The notes below the pieces were generated by a model. The model was not told the origin of the DNA, did not search any database, and was given only the letters and a program-made list of their open reading frames with translations. From assembly GCA_024277475.1 (NCBI GenBank), contig JAJRVC010000219.1, positions 1 to 6,554 of the forward strand: DNA of 6,554 nt, given 5' to 3'. This document shows positions 214 to 6,554 of the stretch, piece after piece. Source of the DNA: Deltaproteobacteria bacterium (GTDB lineage Bacteria > Desulfobacterota > Desulfobacteria > Desulfobacterales > JAFDCJ01). Each line of letters begins with the position of its first letter. Within the stretch, counting starts at the first letter, position 1. A program made the translations under genes and the position numbers.

Positions 214-591
214 TCAGAGTGAGTCCAAATTAACGGATGCGTCTTTATTGCCGCTTTCACGATCCTTGCGGGCCTCACGCAGATGTTTTACCGCTTCATC
301 ATCCAGGACCAGCGCCCACCTTTTACCTTCAAAAAGTCCAAAAACAGCCGCGATGCTGAAAACCAGCAGCGGAAGTAGAAAAAGCAGCCCCACGGCGGCG
401 AAAATACCGATCATCGTGCCCATTTCTCCGCCTTTAAAGCCCGCATAGCCGAAGATGGCCGACAGCACGACGATTAAAAATAAGAACAGCACCGCAACCA
501 GGCTCAGCCAGGCCAGCAGGGGCGCCTGCCAGGGGCGGCGCAGGCTGCTGGCAGACGAAATCCCGGCAAGGGGGGGCGAAACTTTTTCCAT
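214..591 (-). CDS. Small membrane protein of unknown function, two hydrophobic segments
   Basis: This 125-residue protein is not recognised as a named family. A polar N-terminus (about 1-23) precedes a strongly hydrophobic segment at about 24-48. A short glycine-containing turn (GFKGGEMG, 51-58) leads to a second long hydrophobic stretch at about 59-86. The C-terminal tail (about 88-125) is charged and hydrophilic, with EGKRWALVLDDEAVKHL followed by acidic and basic residues. This is a two-pass inner-membrane topology with a soluble tail. It is last in the leftward gene run, 47 bp after the DUF2799 lipoprotein, and no good Shine-Dalgarno precedes its ATG, so it may depend on read-through from upstream genes. 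A run of seven C on the coding strand (plus-strand G7 at 570-576) covers codons 5-8. A length change there would shift the frame. Coding status is supported by membrane-like composition and operon position. Confidence 0.7.
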   Translation of the reverse strand: MEKVSPPLAGISSASSLRRPWQAPLLAWLSLVAVLFLFLIVVLSAIFGYAGFKGGEMGTMIGIFAAVGLLFLLPLLVFSIAAVFGLFEGKRWALVLDDEAVKHLREARKDRESGNKDASVNLDSL

Positions 592-1224: not shown

Positions 1225-4200
1225 TCAGGATCCTTGACTTTTACCGGCCAGGACCTGTTTCAACTGCTTGACGCGTTGTTGCACCCCTGGATTTTTTTCC
1301 AGCTCCAGGCTTTTTTTAAAAAAGCCCAGCGAACGGGTCCAAAGCTGCTTTTTGACAGCCGGGTTTTTTTGGGCCGCTCCGGCCAGCAGGTAAGCATGAC
1401 CGGCATAGCGCAGGTTTTCAGCGCTGGGTGCCAGTTCAGCCGCTTTGGCCGAATATTGCATGCTTTTGGCATACTCCGACTGCTTGCCGGCCAGCACCCC
1501 CAGGTTGCGCCAGGCCAGGGCGTAATCGGGCTTCAGGGCCACGGCCTTGTTAAAGGCCTTGGCGCAGGCATCCAGGTGCCCCAGGCCGAACTGGCCGGCT
1601 CCCAGGTCGTTCCAGACGGCGGCCACCTCGGGGATCAACTCGGCGGCCTGGTGGTAAAGATCGATGGCCTGCTCGTATTCACCCGCCTGGTAATGCCGGT
1701 AAGCCCGCCGGGCCAGCTCAATGCCGTTGCGGCTCGACTCGCTGGGCGTGCCCTCGGCCTTGTAACGTTCGCTCACCCGTTCATCGACCGGGGTGCCGGA
1801 CTCGGTGCGCACCCGGAAGCGGTAGGGACTGACGTACAGCCCCTCCAGGCCGTTTTCCTGAAAGACCTGCACCAGGTACTCACCGGCGGGCAGCTTGAGC
1901 TCTTCCGGCAGGTAGATCGGATTTTTGCCTACGGGTTGCCCCCCACGGTCGTAAAGCCGGGCCTGGAGGACGCATTTCTCGGCCTTGTCGGTCGTTTCCA
2001 GGATGACCGTCTCCGCTTTTTTCAGCTGGAACCGGTAGGTGTCCACGTCTGCGGCCGGCAGGCTTAGGGCCTGGATTTCCTGGTCCACGGCAATCGGACG
2101 CGCTTCGGCTATACTTTCGTTGGGCTCGAAAAGATCTTCGGTGCCGGGAATAAAGAGGAAATTAAGCATGATGGGGTGTTGAACCCGGTATTCCTCCCGG
2201 TGCTCCGCATCGACGCGGACCGTCACCGTTTTATCGATGCGCACAGCGCAGGGCAACCAGCGCGCCCTGCTTTCCGACCCGTCGGCTTCCGTCTTCCAGA
2301 GCTTGACCGCAAAGGGCAGCTTTTCAGGGTGGGATACGATCACATAGCCGGGCGCTGTGGAAGACAAACGGTAATAGTTCTTGCCGCCGGTATCGTAACG
2401 CACCGCCAGGCTGGCCGGGACCTTTACCGGCGTGGCCTGGGCCGGCGTGTCATTGGGCTCGATTTTTTCGGTATCCGGCAGCAGCCGGATATCCATGCCG
2501 TAAGGAGCGGTATCGAAATTTTCCCTGGCCCCCTCGCAGTAAAAGTCCAGGAAATAGACTCCCGGAGCCAGCCATCTGGCCATATCGGTCGGACCGGAAT
2601 AAAGCGTTTCGCGCTTGGCGTTGTACAGATCCATCTGTGGATTCTGATGGGTGGTGCGTTCCTGTTTGTCCACCTCGTCGTCGTGTACCAGCAGATAGCC
2701 TGGCTGTTTGACTTCAAAGCGGTAAAAATCTTGATCGTCAGTGCCGATAAAGCCGATTTTGATGTGAGCGTCGAGTTCCAACACAGTGGCGGCTCCAAAG
2801 CTGTCGTTGGGTTCGGCCAGGTCAAACTCGGGGATAAACTTTACCTTCACTTTCACAGGCTCATCCGAGGTATCGCTGTCAAATTCCGGATAGACACTGA
2901 ACACCCACCGGCCGGGGGTCACCCGCTGGGCTCCGTCGAAATACCGGCCTCCTCTACCCACTGCGTCTATAGAACCGGACGCGAAGAAATTGCACTTGAC
3001 GGGGAAAGGACTGCTGATCTTGTCGAGAACGAGATAGCCGGGCCTGTCCACCTCGAGGCGTCGAAACTGCTCGATCCGGGGTTTTTTGAAAAATAGGTCC
3101 ACGGTCTGTCCGACGGAAACAGGTATAGCAGAAAAATAGGACAGCCCGTCGGAGTAATGTCCCACGAACACGGTGACCGCCCCGGGTTTGTCAAAAGGGA
3201 CCTTGGTGCCGGCTTCTGGCTGCTGGTCGATTACCTTACCGTTGTCTTCCAGGGACGATTCCCGCTTCTGCCAGGTAAAGCGCAGGTGACGCCGGCCCAG
3301 CTCCCGGGATGCTTCGTATGTCTTCAGCCCTTTCAGATCGGGCATTTCCACCCGGGTCCCGGGAGCCGGAACAGCAACGATGAGCGTGACCGGTGCGTCC
3401 AGCGTGATCCGGGTGCCAGGCGCCGGGGCCTGTTTGATGATCCGATACCATTTTTCCAGGTCGCGGATTTCTTTTACGCTGTGGCTGTACCGGATTTGGG
3501 GGGGCTTAAGCAAAAATTGGAGTTTGTCCCGGGCCTGTCTCTCCTGCAGGCCCACCACCCGTGGCAGAACCCGCCGCTGAGCCTGGTGCTGCAGCACCAT
3601 CAGGCTGGCGCCTTTGTCCACCCGGATGCCGGCTGCCGGGTTCTGAGCGTAAATTTTGCCCTCATCCGCCGTGCGGGTCTGGGTATAGACAATCTGGCGG
3701 GTGACCCTGAAGCCTTTACCCTGCAGTGCCTTTGTGGCCTCGGCTTTGGTCAGGCCCACCAGTTGGGGGACCGTTATCTTTTCCTTGACCACGTGGCGAA
3801 TCGAGACAGTCAGAGTCCCGGGCATTGGGGCTTGCACAAATCTGCGCTGCAACTGAAGATGGTATACACCTTCCCTGGCATAACCCAGTCGGCTATAGCC
3901 AAGGAAGACTTCATTGAGTGGATCTTCATCCCAGACCCAGAACTCTAAATGAGGCCCATATCCAGGTATGCAGGAACCATAAAATTTAAAGGTTTGGTCC
4001 CAGGTCGGATTGAGATTATCTTTAACGATCCGCGTTTTCCACTCGTACTCGCCACCGCTCAGGGCGCGGACGACAACGTAAGGATCTGAAAGTTTGCGTT
4101 TTCCCCAGTCCTTGTTTTTTAAACCCTGGGCCTTGACCACGGTGATGGTCCAGTAATCCTCGGATGGATCCCCGGCCAGGGCTGTAAAAGTGATCGTTAA

Positions 4201-4275
4201 GGATAGTGCGGTGAGTACGACGGGCAGGATTAACTGCCGGATCCAGTATTTTTTACCTGACTGCCATTGCATCAT
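1225..4275 (-). CDS. Large exported mosaic protein: signal peptide, C2, three PASTA, PPC-like beta modules, C-terminal TPRs
   Basis: This is a 1016-residue protein counted from ATG 4275. AGGGAGA (4279-4285) sits just upstream, and the adjacent in-frame ATG at 4272 is equally possible. A GTG at 4296 would add seven residues but would place the Shine-Dalgarno inside the gene. Residues 1-34 form a signal peptide (KKYWIR, hydrophobic core, cut after ALA). Residues 41-133 form a C2 domain with Asp ligands at D56, D64 (in SDPY), D116 and D118 (in WDED). The fifth canonical Asp is replaced (EVFLG). PASTA modules follow at about 164-230, 234-302 and 308-372, each with a GL...A..L helix motif and a P-x-x-G turn (NPAAG, APAPG, QPEAG). 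Residues about 380-825 are beta-rich modules like bacterial pre-peptidase C-terminal domains, with EPND/EPNE at 488, 606 and 717 and D-x-D-x-Y-R-F motifs. Residues about 850-1000 are TPRs. There is no enzymatic domain. It is probably a periplasmic or surface scaffold. Module calls are from motifs; function is unknown. Confidence 0.9.
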   Translation of the reverse strand: MMQWQSGKKYWIRQLILPVVLTALSLTITFTALAGDPSEDYWTITVVKAQGLKNKDWGKRKLSDPYVVVRALSGGEYEWKTRIVKDNLNPTWDQTFKFYGSCIPGYGPHLEFWVWDEDPLNEVFLGYSRLGYAREGVYHLQLQRRFVQAPMPGTLTVSIRHVVKEKITVPQLVGLTKAEATKALQGKGFRVTRQIVYTQTRTADEGKIYAQNPAAGIRVDKGASLMVLQHQAQRRVLPRVVGLQERQARDKLQFLLKPPQIRYSHSVKEIRDLEKWYRIIKQAPAPGTRITLDAPVTLIVAVPAPGTRVEMPDLKGLKTYEASRELGRRHLRFTWQKRESSLEDNGKVIDQQPEAGTKVPFDKPGAVTVFVGHYSDGLSYFSAIPVSVGQTVDLFFKKPRIEQFRRLEVDRPGYLVLDKISSPFPVKCNFFASGSIDAVGRGGRYFDGAQRVTPGRWVFSVYPEFDSDTSDEPVKVKVKFIPEFDLAEPNDSFGAATVLELDAHIKIGFIGTDDQDFYRFEVKQPGYLLVHDDEVDKQERTTHQNPQMDLYNAKRETLYSGPTDMARWLAPGVYFLDFYCEGARENFDTAPYGMDIRLLPDTEKIEPNDTPAQATPVKVPASLAVRYDTGGKNYYRLSSTAPGYVIVSHPEKLPFAVKLWKTEADGSESRARWLPCAVRIDKTVTVRVDAEHREEYRVQHPIMLNFLFIPGTEDLFEPNESIAEARPIAVDQEIQALSLPAADVDTYRFQLKKAETVILETTDKAEKCVLQARLYDRGGQPVGKNPIYLPEELKLPAGEYLVQVFQENGLEGLYVSPYRFRVRTESGTPVDERVSERYKAEGTPSESSRNGIELARRAYRHYQAGEYEQAIDLYHQAAELIPEVAAVWNDLGAGQFGLGHLDACAKAFNKAVALKPDYALAWRNLGVLAGKQSEYAKSMQYSAKAAELAPSAENLRYAGHAYLLAGAAQKNPAVKKQLWTRSLGFFKKSLELEKNPGVQQRVKQLKQVLAGKSQGS

Positions 4276-4369: not shown

Positions 4370-4873
4370 TCAGCCGATGTTGCCAAAGTCAAATTCCAGT
4401 AAGTGTTTATCGCCCTTGAGAGTGACGAGGTTTGAGCAAGAGAAAACCAGCTGGTGATGGGCATCGAGAAACATCATCAGGTTGCCGGCGTTGGTGCGTT
4501 TCCAGCCCTTTTGGGCAGCGATTTTATCCAGCAGCTGGGAGTAAAACGTATTGACCTTGTCTTCGTATGGCTTGCTGGTATCCGGCAACAGGTACCGGAT
4601 GCCGTACATGCCGCCTTTGGTTTTTCTGATGCGATCAAAGACCGCGTTTTCATAAACCGGGATGCCCAGGTACTTGAGCTTTTGCTCCAAATCCTGCCGG
4701 GTGACAGTCACTGCAGGTTGAAGGGCTTGTTTTTTGTTTGCGATTTCAGCAGCCGTCTGGTTCTGACTGCTTTGTTGGGCCGTGTTTTTTTGTGCGGTAC
4801 TATTTTCCGGCGAACTGCAGGCCCAGATAAAAACCAATCCGGCCATCATCAACGTACAGGCAATTTTTCTCAT
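4370..4873 (-). CDS. Small predicted lipoprotein with Q/N/S/T-rich linker and C-terminal alpha/beta domain
   Basis: This is a 167-residue protein counted from ATG 4873, which has GGGAGG (4883-4888) 9 nt upstream. A longer reading from a TTG at 4927 lacks support and would bury the signal peptide. MRKIAC and a hydrophobic stretch end in IWAC, so Cys19 is the likely lipid site; Trp at -2 is unusual for a lipobox but the -1 Ala fits. Residues about 20-52 are low-complexity and rich in S, N, T, Q and A, a typical tether across the periplasm or peptidoglycan. The folded part (about 56-167) begins with TRQDLEQKLKYLGIPVYENA and has an fY..ll....GW motif (FYSQLL at 110-115, GW at 123-124). This resembles small lipoprotein domains of the 'YPGA..., fY...GW' sort, a resemblance I cannot verify. 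It lies 50 bp after the glycan-binding-domain gene in the same run. Function is unknown. Confidence 0.82.
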   Translation of the reverse strand: MRKIACTLMMAGLVFIWACSSPENSTAQKNTAQQSSQNQTAAEIANKKQALQPAVTVTRQDLEQKLKYLGIPVYENAVFDRIRKTKGGMYGIRYLLPDTSKPYEDKVNTFYSQLLDKIAAQKGWKRTNAGNLMMFLDAHHQLVFSCSNLVTLKGDKHLLEFDFGNIG

Positions 4874-4923: not shown

Positions 4924-6003
4924 TCAATTTGAACCGGCCAGTCGGCGGTAGACGGCGTTGAGATCAAGCCGCTCGATCTCTCCGGTTTTGTTGTTAAGGT
5001 AATTCAGATAGATGGTTTCCCCGGCCCGTTCGAAATCATACATTTCGCCCACATCAGGACCCAGAATTTTCGCCGGCACCCGGCGTTTCAGCCGGGTGTT
5101 GTACAGTTCATAGGTCGTTTCCACCCGTGAATCACCGGTTTCAGCAGGCATCCGGATGGCGATCACCCACTGCCGGTCGGCGCTGGTGTCGATGATTTGG
5201 AAAACAGCTGCCGGCTCATGGTCGAGAACAATCCCGCTGGCTGTTTGCGTATCCATGTAAAGGGTGTTTTCCTTCGGGTTCACATAAACTTTTTTGACTG
5301 TCGGGTATGCCGGCGCCACGCAATTGAACTTGATTTCGGAAACGCAGGTGTCATCGTATTTATTGCTCTTGTAGACGTCTATAATCGTCAATTGCAAGAT
5401 ATAACGAACATCCGGTTTCATGGAGCTATCGCCTTTTATTTGCCGAGACTTGAATTCAGCAAGCACTTTATTTTTAAATTCCCGCATCCTTTGCCAGTCA
5501 AACGGCAGGGGCATCTGCTGGAATCCGAAAATGTCCTGCAGGAACACGGTGTATTCAGCTGAAAATTTTTGGGTATGAAAGAGTGTAAAACTTTCGGTGA
5601 GTTCACCTTCACGGCTGATGCCGACCCAAAGGGCGAGCTTGGCAATTTTGACCCGGTTGTTGGCCCGGAAAAGGGACCGGCTTTTCTGGTAGCCGTTGGC
5701 CATGGAAAAAGACGGAGTGCCGAAGGGAATGACTATGTACAGGGTTTCACCAATGCCTGGACCGGGTGTTCCTTCCGCCCAGCAGGTCTTCAGATCATTG
5801 TCAAAGAGCCGGTGCATGGCGTAGCGACCAAAGGTATTGTCTGTCGGGGTCTGAAGTTCGGAGGATGCCCGATAAAGATGCCCGGCATGGTCCTTTAATT
5901 GCAAGCTGATCCAGCCGGCCGTGGGGACTGCCCCACACAGCAGCAGCGCCATCGCGCAAAGCGCAACGCAAAGCTTTCGGTATTTAGGCCGAATGGTTCT
6001 CAT
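4924..6003 (-). CDS. Exported protein with discoidin-like / NADase-type glycan-binding domain
   Basis: This is a 359-residue protein counted from ATG 6003, with GGAAG (6009-6013) 5 nt upstream. An upstream in-frame TTG (6108) is less likely because it would put 35 polar residues before the signal peptide. Residues 1-29 are a signal peptide (RPKYRK, hydrophobic core, VPTAG). Residues about 44-229 show the hallmarks of the discoidin-fold, NADase-type glycan-binding family: YRASSEL, LFDNDLKTCWAEG (67-78), G-x-G-I-G-E (81-86), MANGYQKS (101-108), NNRVK (115-119) and a closing DDTCVSEIKF (217-226). In that family the domain is thought to bind carbohydrate and is often attached to toxins or enzymes. 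Here no enzyme is attached. The C-terminal part (about 230-359) is beta-rich and unrecognised. It is the first gene of the leftward operon, behind a long leader. Domain assignment is from motifs; ligand and location (periplasm or surface) are inferred. Confidence 0.85.
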   Translation of the reverse strand: MRTIRPKYRKLCVALCAMALLLCGAVPTAGWISLQLKDHAGHLYRASSELQTPTDNTFGRYAMHRLFDNDLKTCWAEGTPGPGIGETLYIVIPFGTPSFSMANGYQKSRSLFRANNRVKIAKLALWVGISREGELTESFTLFHTQKFSAEYTVFLQDIFGFQQMPLPFDWQRMREFKNKVLAEFKSRQIKGDSSMKPDVRYILQLTIIDVYKSNKYDDTCVSEIKFNCVAPAYPTVKKVYVNPKENTLYMDTQTASGIVLDHEPAAVFQIIDTSADRQWVIAIRMPAETGDSRVETTYELYNTRLKRRVPAKILGPDVGEMYDFERAGETIYLNYLNNKTGEIERLDLNAVYRRLAGSN

Positions 6004-6472
6004 GGCATCTTCCACGCCGTATTCCGCGGGTTGACCGCACACCCAGGCAGACGGATTGGCTGAACGGTGTTTAACATCCAAAGCACCGGCGTATGGAGTG
6101 GACGGCAACGCATTTCGTGACGCTCGGTGCTTTCAAATCTACCGGTTATGCTTTCAAGGAGGTCCGGCCCGGTGATGATGCAGGGAGATGACTTGTACAG
6201 TCTGGGGTTGAGAGCCGCTGCAGGACAGAAAAGGCATTGGCCGTGTGCAATGACAGATTTGATGCGGTTTTTGACATTTGAACGCTGATGATGAAAACAA
6301 GAGTATTTACCTCACTGTTGCTGGAACCGCTTTCGGGATTAACCGCCACATTCGATTAATATATAAATTATATTATGGGTTTAAAAATTGGTCAAGCAAT
6401 AGATTGTATTAACCCAGGGTGTTTTTATTCTGCCCTATCCATAAAATAATATCAATTACTTGCAAGAAATTA
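6004..6472. other. Long divergent intergenic region and operon leader
   Basis: No convincing protein gene is seen here. Positions 6004-6350 have ordinary base composition and would be the untranslated leader of the leftward operon if the promoter at 6367-6395 is used. Positions about 6351-6475 are clearly AT-rich and carry the promoter elements. Within it are a direct repeat TGCTTTCAA (6128-6136 and 6149-6157, 21 bp apart) and two very short plus-strand reading frames behind AAGGAGGT (6156-6163), discussed in the findings. Confidence 0.6.
6367..6395 (-). promoter_or_regulatory. Sigma70-type promoter for the leftward operon
   Basis: On the minus strand, TTGACC (6390-6395) is followed by a 17-nt spacer and a perfect TATAAT (6367-6372). 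The expected transcription start is near 6360, about 350 nt before the ATG at 6003. It is the best leftward match seen in the intergenic region. No closer promoter was found, so a long structured or regulated leader is possible. Confidence 0.6.
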
Positions 6473-6501
6473 TGGACAAACGCCTCCGGATGAGGTATAA
6501 A
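6473..6501 (+). promoter_or_regulatory. Sigma70-type promoter for the rightward gene at the window edge
   Basis: TGGACA (6473-6478), a 17-nt spacer and TATAAA (6496-6501) are each one mismatch from consensus. The predicted start near 6508 gives a leader of about 30 nt before the TTG start at 6539. The spacer contains CCTCCGGA (6483-6490), one arm of an inverted repeat whose other arm covers the ribosome binding site, so a bound regulator could occlude the promoter. Confidence 0.62.
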
Positions 6502-6530
6502 ACAAGCCATATGACACTTCATTCCGGAGG
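6483..6530. repeat. Inverted repeat CCTCCGGA / TCCGGAGG spanning promoter spacer and ribosome binding site
   Basis: CCTCCGGA (6483-6490) is the exact reverse complement of TCCGGAGG (6523-6530). Pairing can extend inward through TGAGG against CTTCA with one bulged base and a G-T pair. The right arm contains the GGAGG ribosome binding site. A transcript from the promoter at 6473-6501 would lack the left arm; a longer upstream transcript could fold and hide the site. It may instead be a pair of operators, since both arms contain the palindrome TCCGGA. Confidence 0.5.
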
Positions 6531-6538
6531 TAACTGCA

Positions 6539-6554
6539 TTGAACCTGTTAAAAG
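6539..6554 (+). CDS. 5' end of a rightward gene, truncated by the window edge
   Basis: A TTG start at 6539-6541 is preceded by GGAGG (6526-6530) at an 8-nt spacing and by a good promoter about 40 bp upstream. Only five codons are visible (M-N-L-L-K), so no product can be named. The promoter, ribosome binding site and open frame support a real start. The rare TTG codon could mean low expression, or the true start could be an ATG beyond the window. Confidence 0.5.

Follow-up and report, generated by a model that had tools for sequence, protein, structure and literature searches.

Introduction

C2 domains are the classic calcium-and-lipid sensors of eukaryotes, e.g., in dysferlin (C2A), PLC-delta1, and the extended synaptotagmins. 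Consecutive PASTA domains occur in Ser/Thr kinases (PknB/PrkC/Stk1, NF033483), and tandem PPC-type modules occur in clostridial collagenases, whose collagen-binding domains (CBDs; ColG s3a-s3b and ColH s3) are described as a PPC subclass in PMC4356367. LpoP, according to PMC7267771, is a tandem-TPR activator of peptidoglycan synthase. Here we describe a gene whose predicted product, hereafter the scaffold, brings C2, PASTA, PPC/CBD-like, and TPR regions together in one chain. The gene lies in the window, i.e., a whole 6,554-nucleotide stretch of DNA from a Deltaproteobacteria bacterium (GenBank assembly GCA_024277475.1, contig JAJRVC010000219.1).

We confirm that scaffold proteins form a real, rare family. 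Our preferred reading, which we hold with about even confidence, is that the scaffold is exported and works as a cell-envelope adaptor which is tuned by calcium and has no catalytic role; its location in this Gram-negative Deltaproteobacterium is probably the periplasm. This reading is built on folds, conservation, rarity, and gene linkage, all reported below. In the open-licence literature, we found no paper on a C2 + PASTA + TPR (or PPC + PASTA) combination in bacteria, none on bacterial C2 domains (searched by phrase), and none on DUF2799, the family of one neighbouring gene.

Scaffold architecture

The scaffold open reading frame (ORF) runs from 4275 to 1225 on the minus strand, with an ATG start and a TGA stop. 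An earlier note on this DNA had placed C2, three PASTA repeats, and TPRs in one chain, and all three families exceed their Pfam cut-offs: C2 (PF00168, residues 43-133, 1.1e-16, 61.4 bits against 22), PASTA (PF03793, three stretches, 1.9e-27, 95.5 bits against 23.2), and TPR_2 (4.4e-11, 42.4 bits against 27, with repeats within 854-952). The same scan found no enzymatic family in the scaffold, in agreement with that note, and a kinase or penicillin-binding protein was ruled out because neither domain is present. No NCBIfam family was matched above its own cut-off; the best match was to the PASTA part only of NF033483 (2.9e-22, 79.4 bits against 450), and the magnetosome TPR protein MamA (NF040959) differs in that the scaffold scores 30.8 bits against a cut-off of 200. 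The scaffold thus has the consecutive PASTA domains of the Ser/Thr kinases, in sequence and in fold, but it lacks their kinase domain and adds C2, PPC, and TPR regions.

An AlphaFold2 model (mean predicted local distance difference test score 77.9) agrees with these assignments. The C2 region is an eight-stranded C2 sandwich by model and fold comparison; the earlier note had the fold right and the extent (41-133) too short, as the domain reaches approximately residue 162. The strand-helix-strands pattern of PASTA appears three times (fold match to 5e12 at 8.5e-13), which bears out the reading of residues 164-372 as PASTA folds, and the TPR tail has a TPR fold in the model. Read by eye, the first 34 residues resemble a signal peptide with no canonical lipobox in the window protein, and in the homologues P0003-P0005 a cysteine lies within the N-terminal region in a setting that is non-canonical for a lipobox.

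The C2 domain carries four aspartates (Asp56, Asp64, Asp116, and Asp118, in loops 1 and 3) which are conserved in 10/11 distinct full-length members of the family. Taken with the fold, they suggest that this domain may bind calcium and lipid. It differs from the eukaryotic C2 domains named above in being bacterial and apparently exported, in occurring once per chain, and in the apparent loss of a fifth ligand. No C2 domain was found in 14 control genomes, and the scaffold was the only C2 protein found in the three metagenome-assembled genomes (MAGs) that carry a relative (G001, G002, and G003), although absence from a MAG is weak evidence.

Between the PASTA triplet and the TPR tail are four beta modules (M0 to M3). 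The earlier note called these EPND-marked; the modules are there, and an EPN motif begins M1, M2, and M3 in all 11 distinct full-length members but is absent from M0. Comparison with hhalign relates M0 to M1 (92.0%), M2 (94.5%), and M3 (65.7%), and M2 to M1 and M3. We keep the label "PPC-like" because of a profile comparison with one PPC-bearing subtilase, sequence matches to collagenase CBDs (module profile against 5iku, 1.3e-15), and the fold, the PPC/CBD fold being clear for M3 only. The Pfam PPC model (PF04151) matched none of the nine aligned members at E<=1 and, at E<=10, none of three window modules taken singly, so of the four segment types proposed for profile searches, C2, PASTA, and TPR were matched and PPC was not.

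The collagenases offer the closest comparison for these modules. In PMC4356367, the ColG s3a-s3b linker changes from helix to strand upon calcium with a rise in collagen affinity, and the collagen hot-spot tyrosines are Tyr970, Tyr994, and Tyr996; with these three as reference, one common offset set our ColG numbering. In the scaffold, the EPN motif aligns with the linker-side E-x-N-D of s3b; a D-x-D comes next, and its second Asp falls at the D930 place. We take these ColG positions, and their residue numbers, to be those of calcium ligands. Along with the M3 fold and the tandem repeats, this linker motif is what the scaffold shares with PPC and CBD proteins; the differences are that it has no protease domain, does not reach the Pfam PPC model, and has non-aromatic consensus letters at all three hot-spot places. 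Collagen binding is therefore not predicted for the modules. By eye, the two window modules tested at the Tyr994 place are both aromatic (Tyr in M1, Phe in M3), and so these may present a surface related to the collagen-binding one.

Family members and distribution

We searched 5.77 billion proteins with the scaffold and with a profile. In each case scoring was limited to the 7996 candidates with the most words in common, so further members are possible. The first search gave 19 matches at E<=1e-3: nine full-length proteins with the scaffold architecture (window included), one partial protein (P0007, 645 aa), and otherwise PASTA kinases and TPR proteins. The profile gave 34 matches and no additional full-length member. 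The nine members, aligned with P0007 and a duplicate (P0002) left out, are 30-77% identical to the window scaffold over its whole length, and each of C2, PASTA, and TPR was matched at E<=1 in 9/9.

A single-sequence scan of genome contigs found no scaffold relative. When one genome per species was scanned with the alignment, four loci turned up, in three MAGs: L001 (Planctomycetota, G001), and L002 (G002), L003, and L004 (both G003) in Deltaproteobacteria. As P0011 corresponds to L003/L004 (100 and 99.1% identity), the nine proteins plus L001 and L002 make 11 distinct full-length members. The earlier note's domain order is thus found in further metagenome proteins and MAGs. The gene is sparse even among relatives: 2/97 relatives of G002 carry it (G002 and G003 themselves), G002 alone among 395 genomes of its phylum (two best candidates scored per genome), and G001 alone among 101 relatives of G001.

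Chance or an assembly artefact was ruled out, since the same domain order recurs at approximately 30% identity in metagenome proteins and named MAGs. Eukaryotic contamination as a source of the C2 domain was ruled out because the relatives were found on contigs of bacterial MAGs, among genes that look bacterial (by reading). Regarding mobile or viral origin, no relative was found among viral contigs (a phage collection was not searched), and the two plasmid records that matched did so only through the PASTA or the TPR region.

These genomes also bear on whether the scaffold is a wall-signal receptor or decoy working with PASTA Ser/Thr kinases. The likeness of its PASTA region to that of PknB fits such a role, but in G001 and G003 the scaffold was the sole PASTA protein found, and the one other in G002 (351 aa) has no kinase domain, making this explanation highly improbable, although all three are MAGs and may be incomplete. 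That G002 protein (L030 1886-2941) has three PASTA stretches, appears membrane-anchored by eye, and is encoded between rsmB and rpe.

Gene neighbourhood

The window holds five minus-strand ORFs separated by 50, 94, 22, and 47 bases, in the order NADase_transloc-domain protein, small lipoprotein, scaffold, DUF2799 lipoprotein, and small membrane protein (Table 1).

Table 1. Features of the window, with residue numbers for the scaffold protein
Feature	Position	Strand	Basis
Exported protein (by reading) with NADase_transloc / F5/8-type-C domain, conserved neighbour	4924..6003	-	PF25302 8e-21
Small lipoprotein (lipobox read by eye), rare family, conserved neighbour	4370..4873	-	L002/L004 counterparts
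Scaffold gene, 1016 aa, signal peptide-C2-PASTA x3-PPC/CBD x4-TPR	1225..4275	-	ORF, Pfam, model
Signal-peptide-like N-terminus, residues 1-34, without clear lipobox	4174..4275	-	Reading by eye
C2 domain, residues 41-162, eight strands; Asp56, Asp64, Asp116, Asp118	3790..4155	-	
PASTA 1, residues 166-232	3580..3780	-	Pfam, model, fold match
PASTA 2, residues 234-301	3373..3576	-	Pfam, hhalign, model, fold match
PASTA 3, residues 308-373	3157..3354	-	Pfam, hhalign, model, fold match
Beta module M0, residues 376-482, without EPN motif	2830..3150	-	hhalign to M1-M3
PPC/CBD module M1, residues 485-600, EPND	2476..2823	-	hhalign, PPC profile, CBD sequence match
PPC/CBD-like module M2, residues 604-710, EPND	2146..2466	-	hhalign to M1 and M3
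PPC/CBD module M3, residues 713-824, EPNE	1804..2139	-	
TPR tail, residues 846-1010	1246..1740	-	
DUF2799 lipoprotein (lipobox by eye), neighbour also in L004	639..1202	-	PF10973 8.4e-20
Small membrane protein, last ORF of same-strand run	214..591	-	ORF list

The small lipoprotein comes after the scaffold in L002 (32%, 1e-16) and L004 (31%, 7e-13). Its family has 13 proteins in the 5.77 billion searched, and it occurs in the same 2/97 relatives of G002 as the scaffold. The window copy is 71% identical to P0046, from a MAG named as Deltaproteobacteria, in keeping with a probable Deltaproteobacterial origin of the window, and one family member (P0047) shares a longest contig of 5720 bases with a scaffold protein (P0005), which suggests, without proving, that the two are linked. 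In G002, the final part of a second scaffold gene lies on contig C70 (L029 2840-4660), together with what is left of a frameshifted lipoprotein gene. A gene for an IS200/IS605 transposase is nearby, and further along DUF2799 is intact; these remnants suggest a decayed second copy of the scaffold locus. In L004, DUF2799 comes next after the small lipoprotein, on the opposite strand (36%, 2e-34).

A NADase_transloc gene lies near the scaffold, and divergent from it, in L002 (30%, 4e-38, with one family-less 301-aa ORF between) and L003 (31%, 2e-33), and such genes occur in 3/97 relatives of G002. The third case (G065:C1047:37000-38394) is a different, 716-aa frame with three tandem domains. NCBIfam names the domain of the window's NADase_transloc-type protein as glycan-binding (1.2e-22), and this, like the CBD-type modules and the aromatic residues of M1 and M3, would suit an adhesin or matrix component, secreted or on the surface, in which the rod of modules and the NADase_transloc-type neighbour bind external glycans or proteins. 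Adhesins, however, do not usually carry PASTA or TPR regions, no surface anchor was seen by eye, and the consensus lacks the hot-spot tyrosines, so we regard an adhesin as decidedly unlikely.

Another explanation is an LpoP-like regulator of peptidoglycan synthesis or hydrolysis, in which the TPR tail activates a wall enzyme, PASTA senses the wall, and the C2 and PPC regions serve only for positioning. Like LpoP as presented in PMC7267771, the scaffold would be an exported TPR protein of the envelope, and L004 has a gene for an RlpA-family lytic transglycosylase (DPBB and SPOR domains, 5739-6545) approximately 4.4 kb downstream of the scaffold end. But the lipoprotein, DUF2799, and two more ORFs lie between them, no gene for a wall enzyme is evident in the window or, checked by eye only, in L002 and L003, and the scaffold family is very rare. 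The scaffold also differs from LpoP in its many extra domains and, as far as reading by eye goes, in apparently not being a lipoprotein, and a link to a penicillin-binding protein is only hypothetical. This regulator is possible but rather unlikely.

At the window's start, positions 71-118 resemble a tRNA-Glu (anticodon CTC by eye) of which only the 3' half is present, and a terminator-like stem comes next (124-152); ARAGORN found no tRNA in the window and Rfam gave no tRNA match. The tRNA-like half could be the attachment-site remnant of an integrated element. A promoter-like site (6395-6367, minus strand, 11/12 match) lies upstream of the first same-strand gene. Promoter and terminator scans gave counts near the shuffled mean (6 against 4.4, standard deviation 1.4, and 9 against 8.7, standard deviation 3.3), so we did not use them as evidence.

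Proposed function

For the envelope adaptor, we infer export and contacts with calcium, membrane, wall, and partners as follows. The signal peptide, as read from the sequence, would export the protein, and the C2 domain would dock on phospholipid headgroups with calcium. The PASTA triplet, judging from its family, may touch peptidoglycan, its precursors, or a wall enzyme. The four-module rod would act as a spacer or ligand surface, and calcium bound to the M1-M3 EPN linkers might stiffen or reorient it as in ColG. Finally, the TPR tail would recruit partners, given conserved linkage most likely the products of neighbouring genes. The earlier note's idea of a scaffold bridging membrane lipid, wall, and protein partners is supported in part. 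One should be wary of assuming that PASTA binds peptidoglycan, because in PMC4632501 the growth inhibition caused by an overexpressed PknB PASTA region was abolished by magnesium and not by muropeptides.

Several observations weigh against the adaptor. Calcium is not universal in the family, since the C2 domain of the Planctomycetota member L001 (3607-4002) keeps only Asp64 of the four aspartates with the other architecture intact, and a fifth C2 ligand, in loop 3, looks unconserved by eye. In the rod, the letter after EPN varies (D, N, or E), and the M2 residue at the D930 place is Asn in 4/9 members, window included (counted by eye from the alignment). Compared directly with PPC segments, M0 does not match (at most 5.0%) and M2 matches weakly (at most 21.8%), and the top Foldseek match of the module region is to cubilin CUB domains (5.1e-12), ahead of ColG (5.2e-9), with a low template-modelling score for both. 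The arrangement of domains is not fixed by the model because its predicted template-modelling score is 0.40. Nor are the partners universal, as none of the three partner families was over threshold in G001 (best lipoprotein E 0.69). DUF2799 may be a loose neighbour because it is commoner than the scaffold (12/97 relatives of G002) and in G002 lies on another contig.

A bolder form of this reading, which we consider unlikely, is that the scaffold is the bacterial equivalent of a membrane tether gated by calcium. Calcium could sit at as many as four places (the C2 domain and three PPC modules), and on its rise the scaffold would clamp an envelope membrane to peptidoglycan, with the small lipoprotein as a dedicated partner and perhaps also the DUF2799 lipoprotein and the NADase_transloc-domain protein. 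Together these would make a self-contained system that links parts of the envelope in response to calcium.

Significance

In the scaffold, what appears to be an exported bacterial protein joins a C2 domain, most of whose candidate ligand residues are kept, to PASTA modules of the cell-wall type and PPC modules of the calcium type. If the adaptor reading holds, the scaffold and its equally rare lipoprotein would constitute a defined gene set for calcium control of membrane-wall contacts in diderms.
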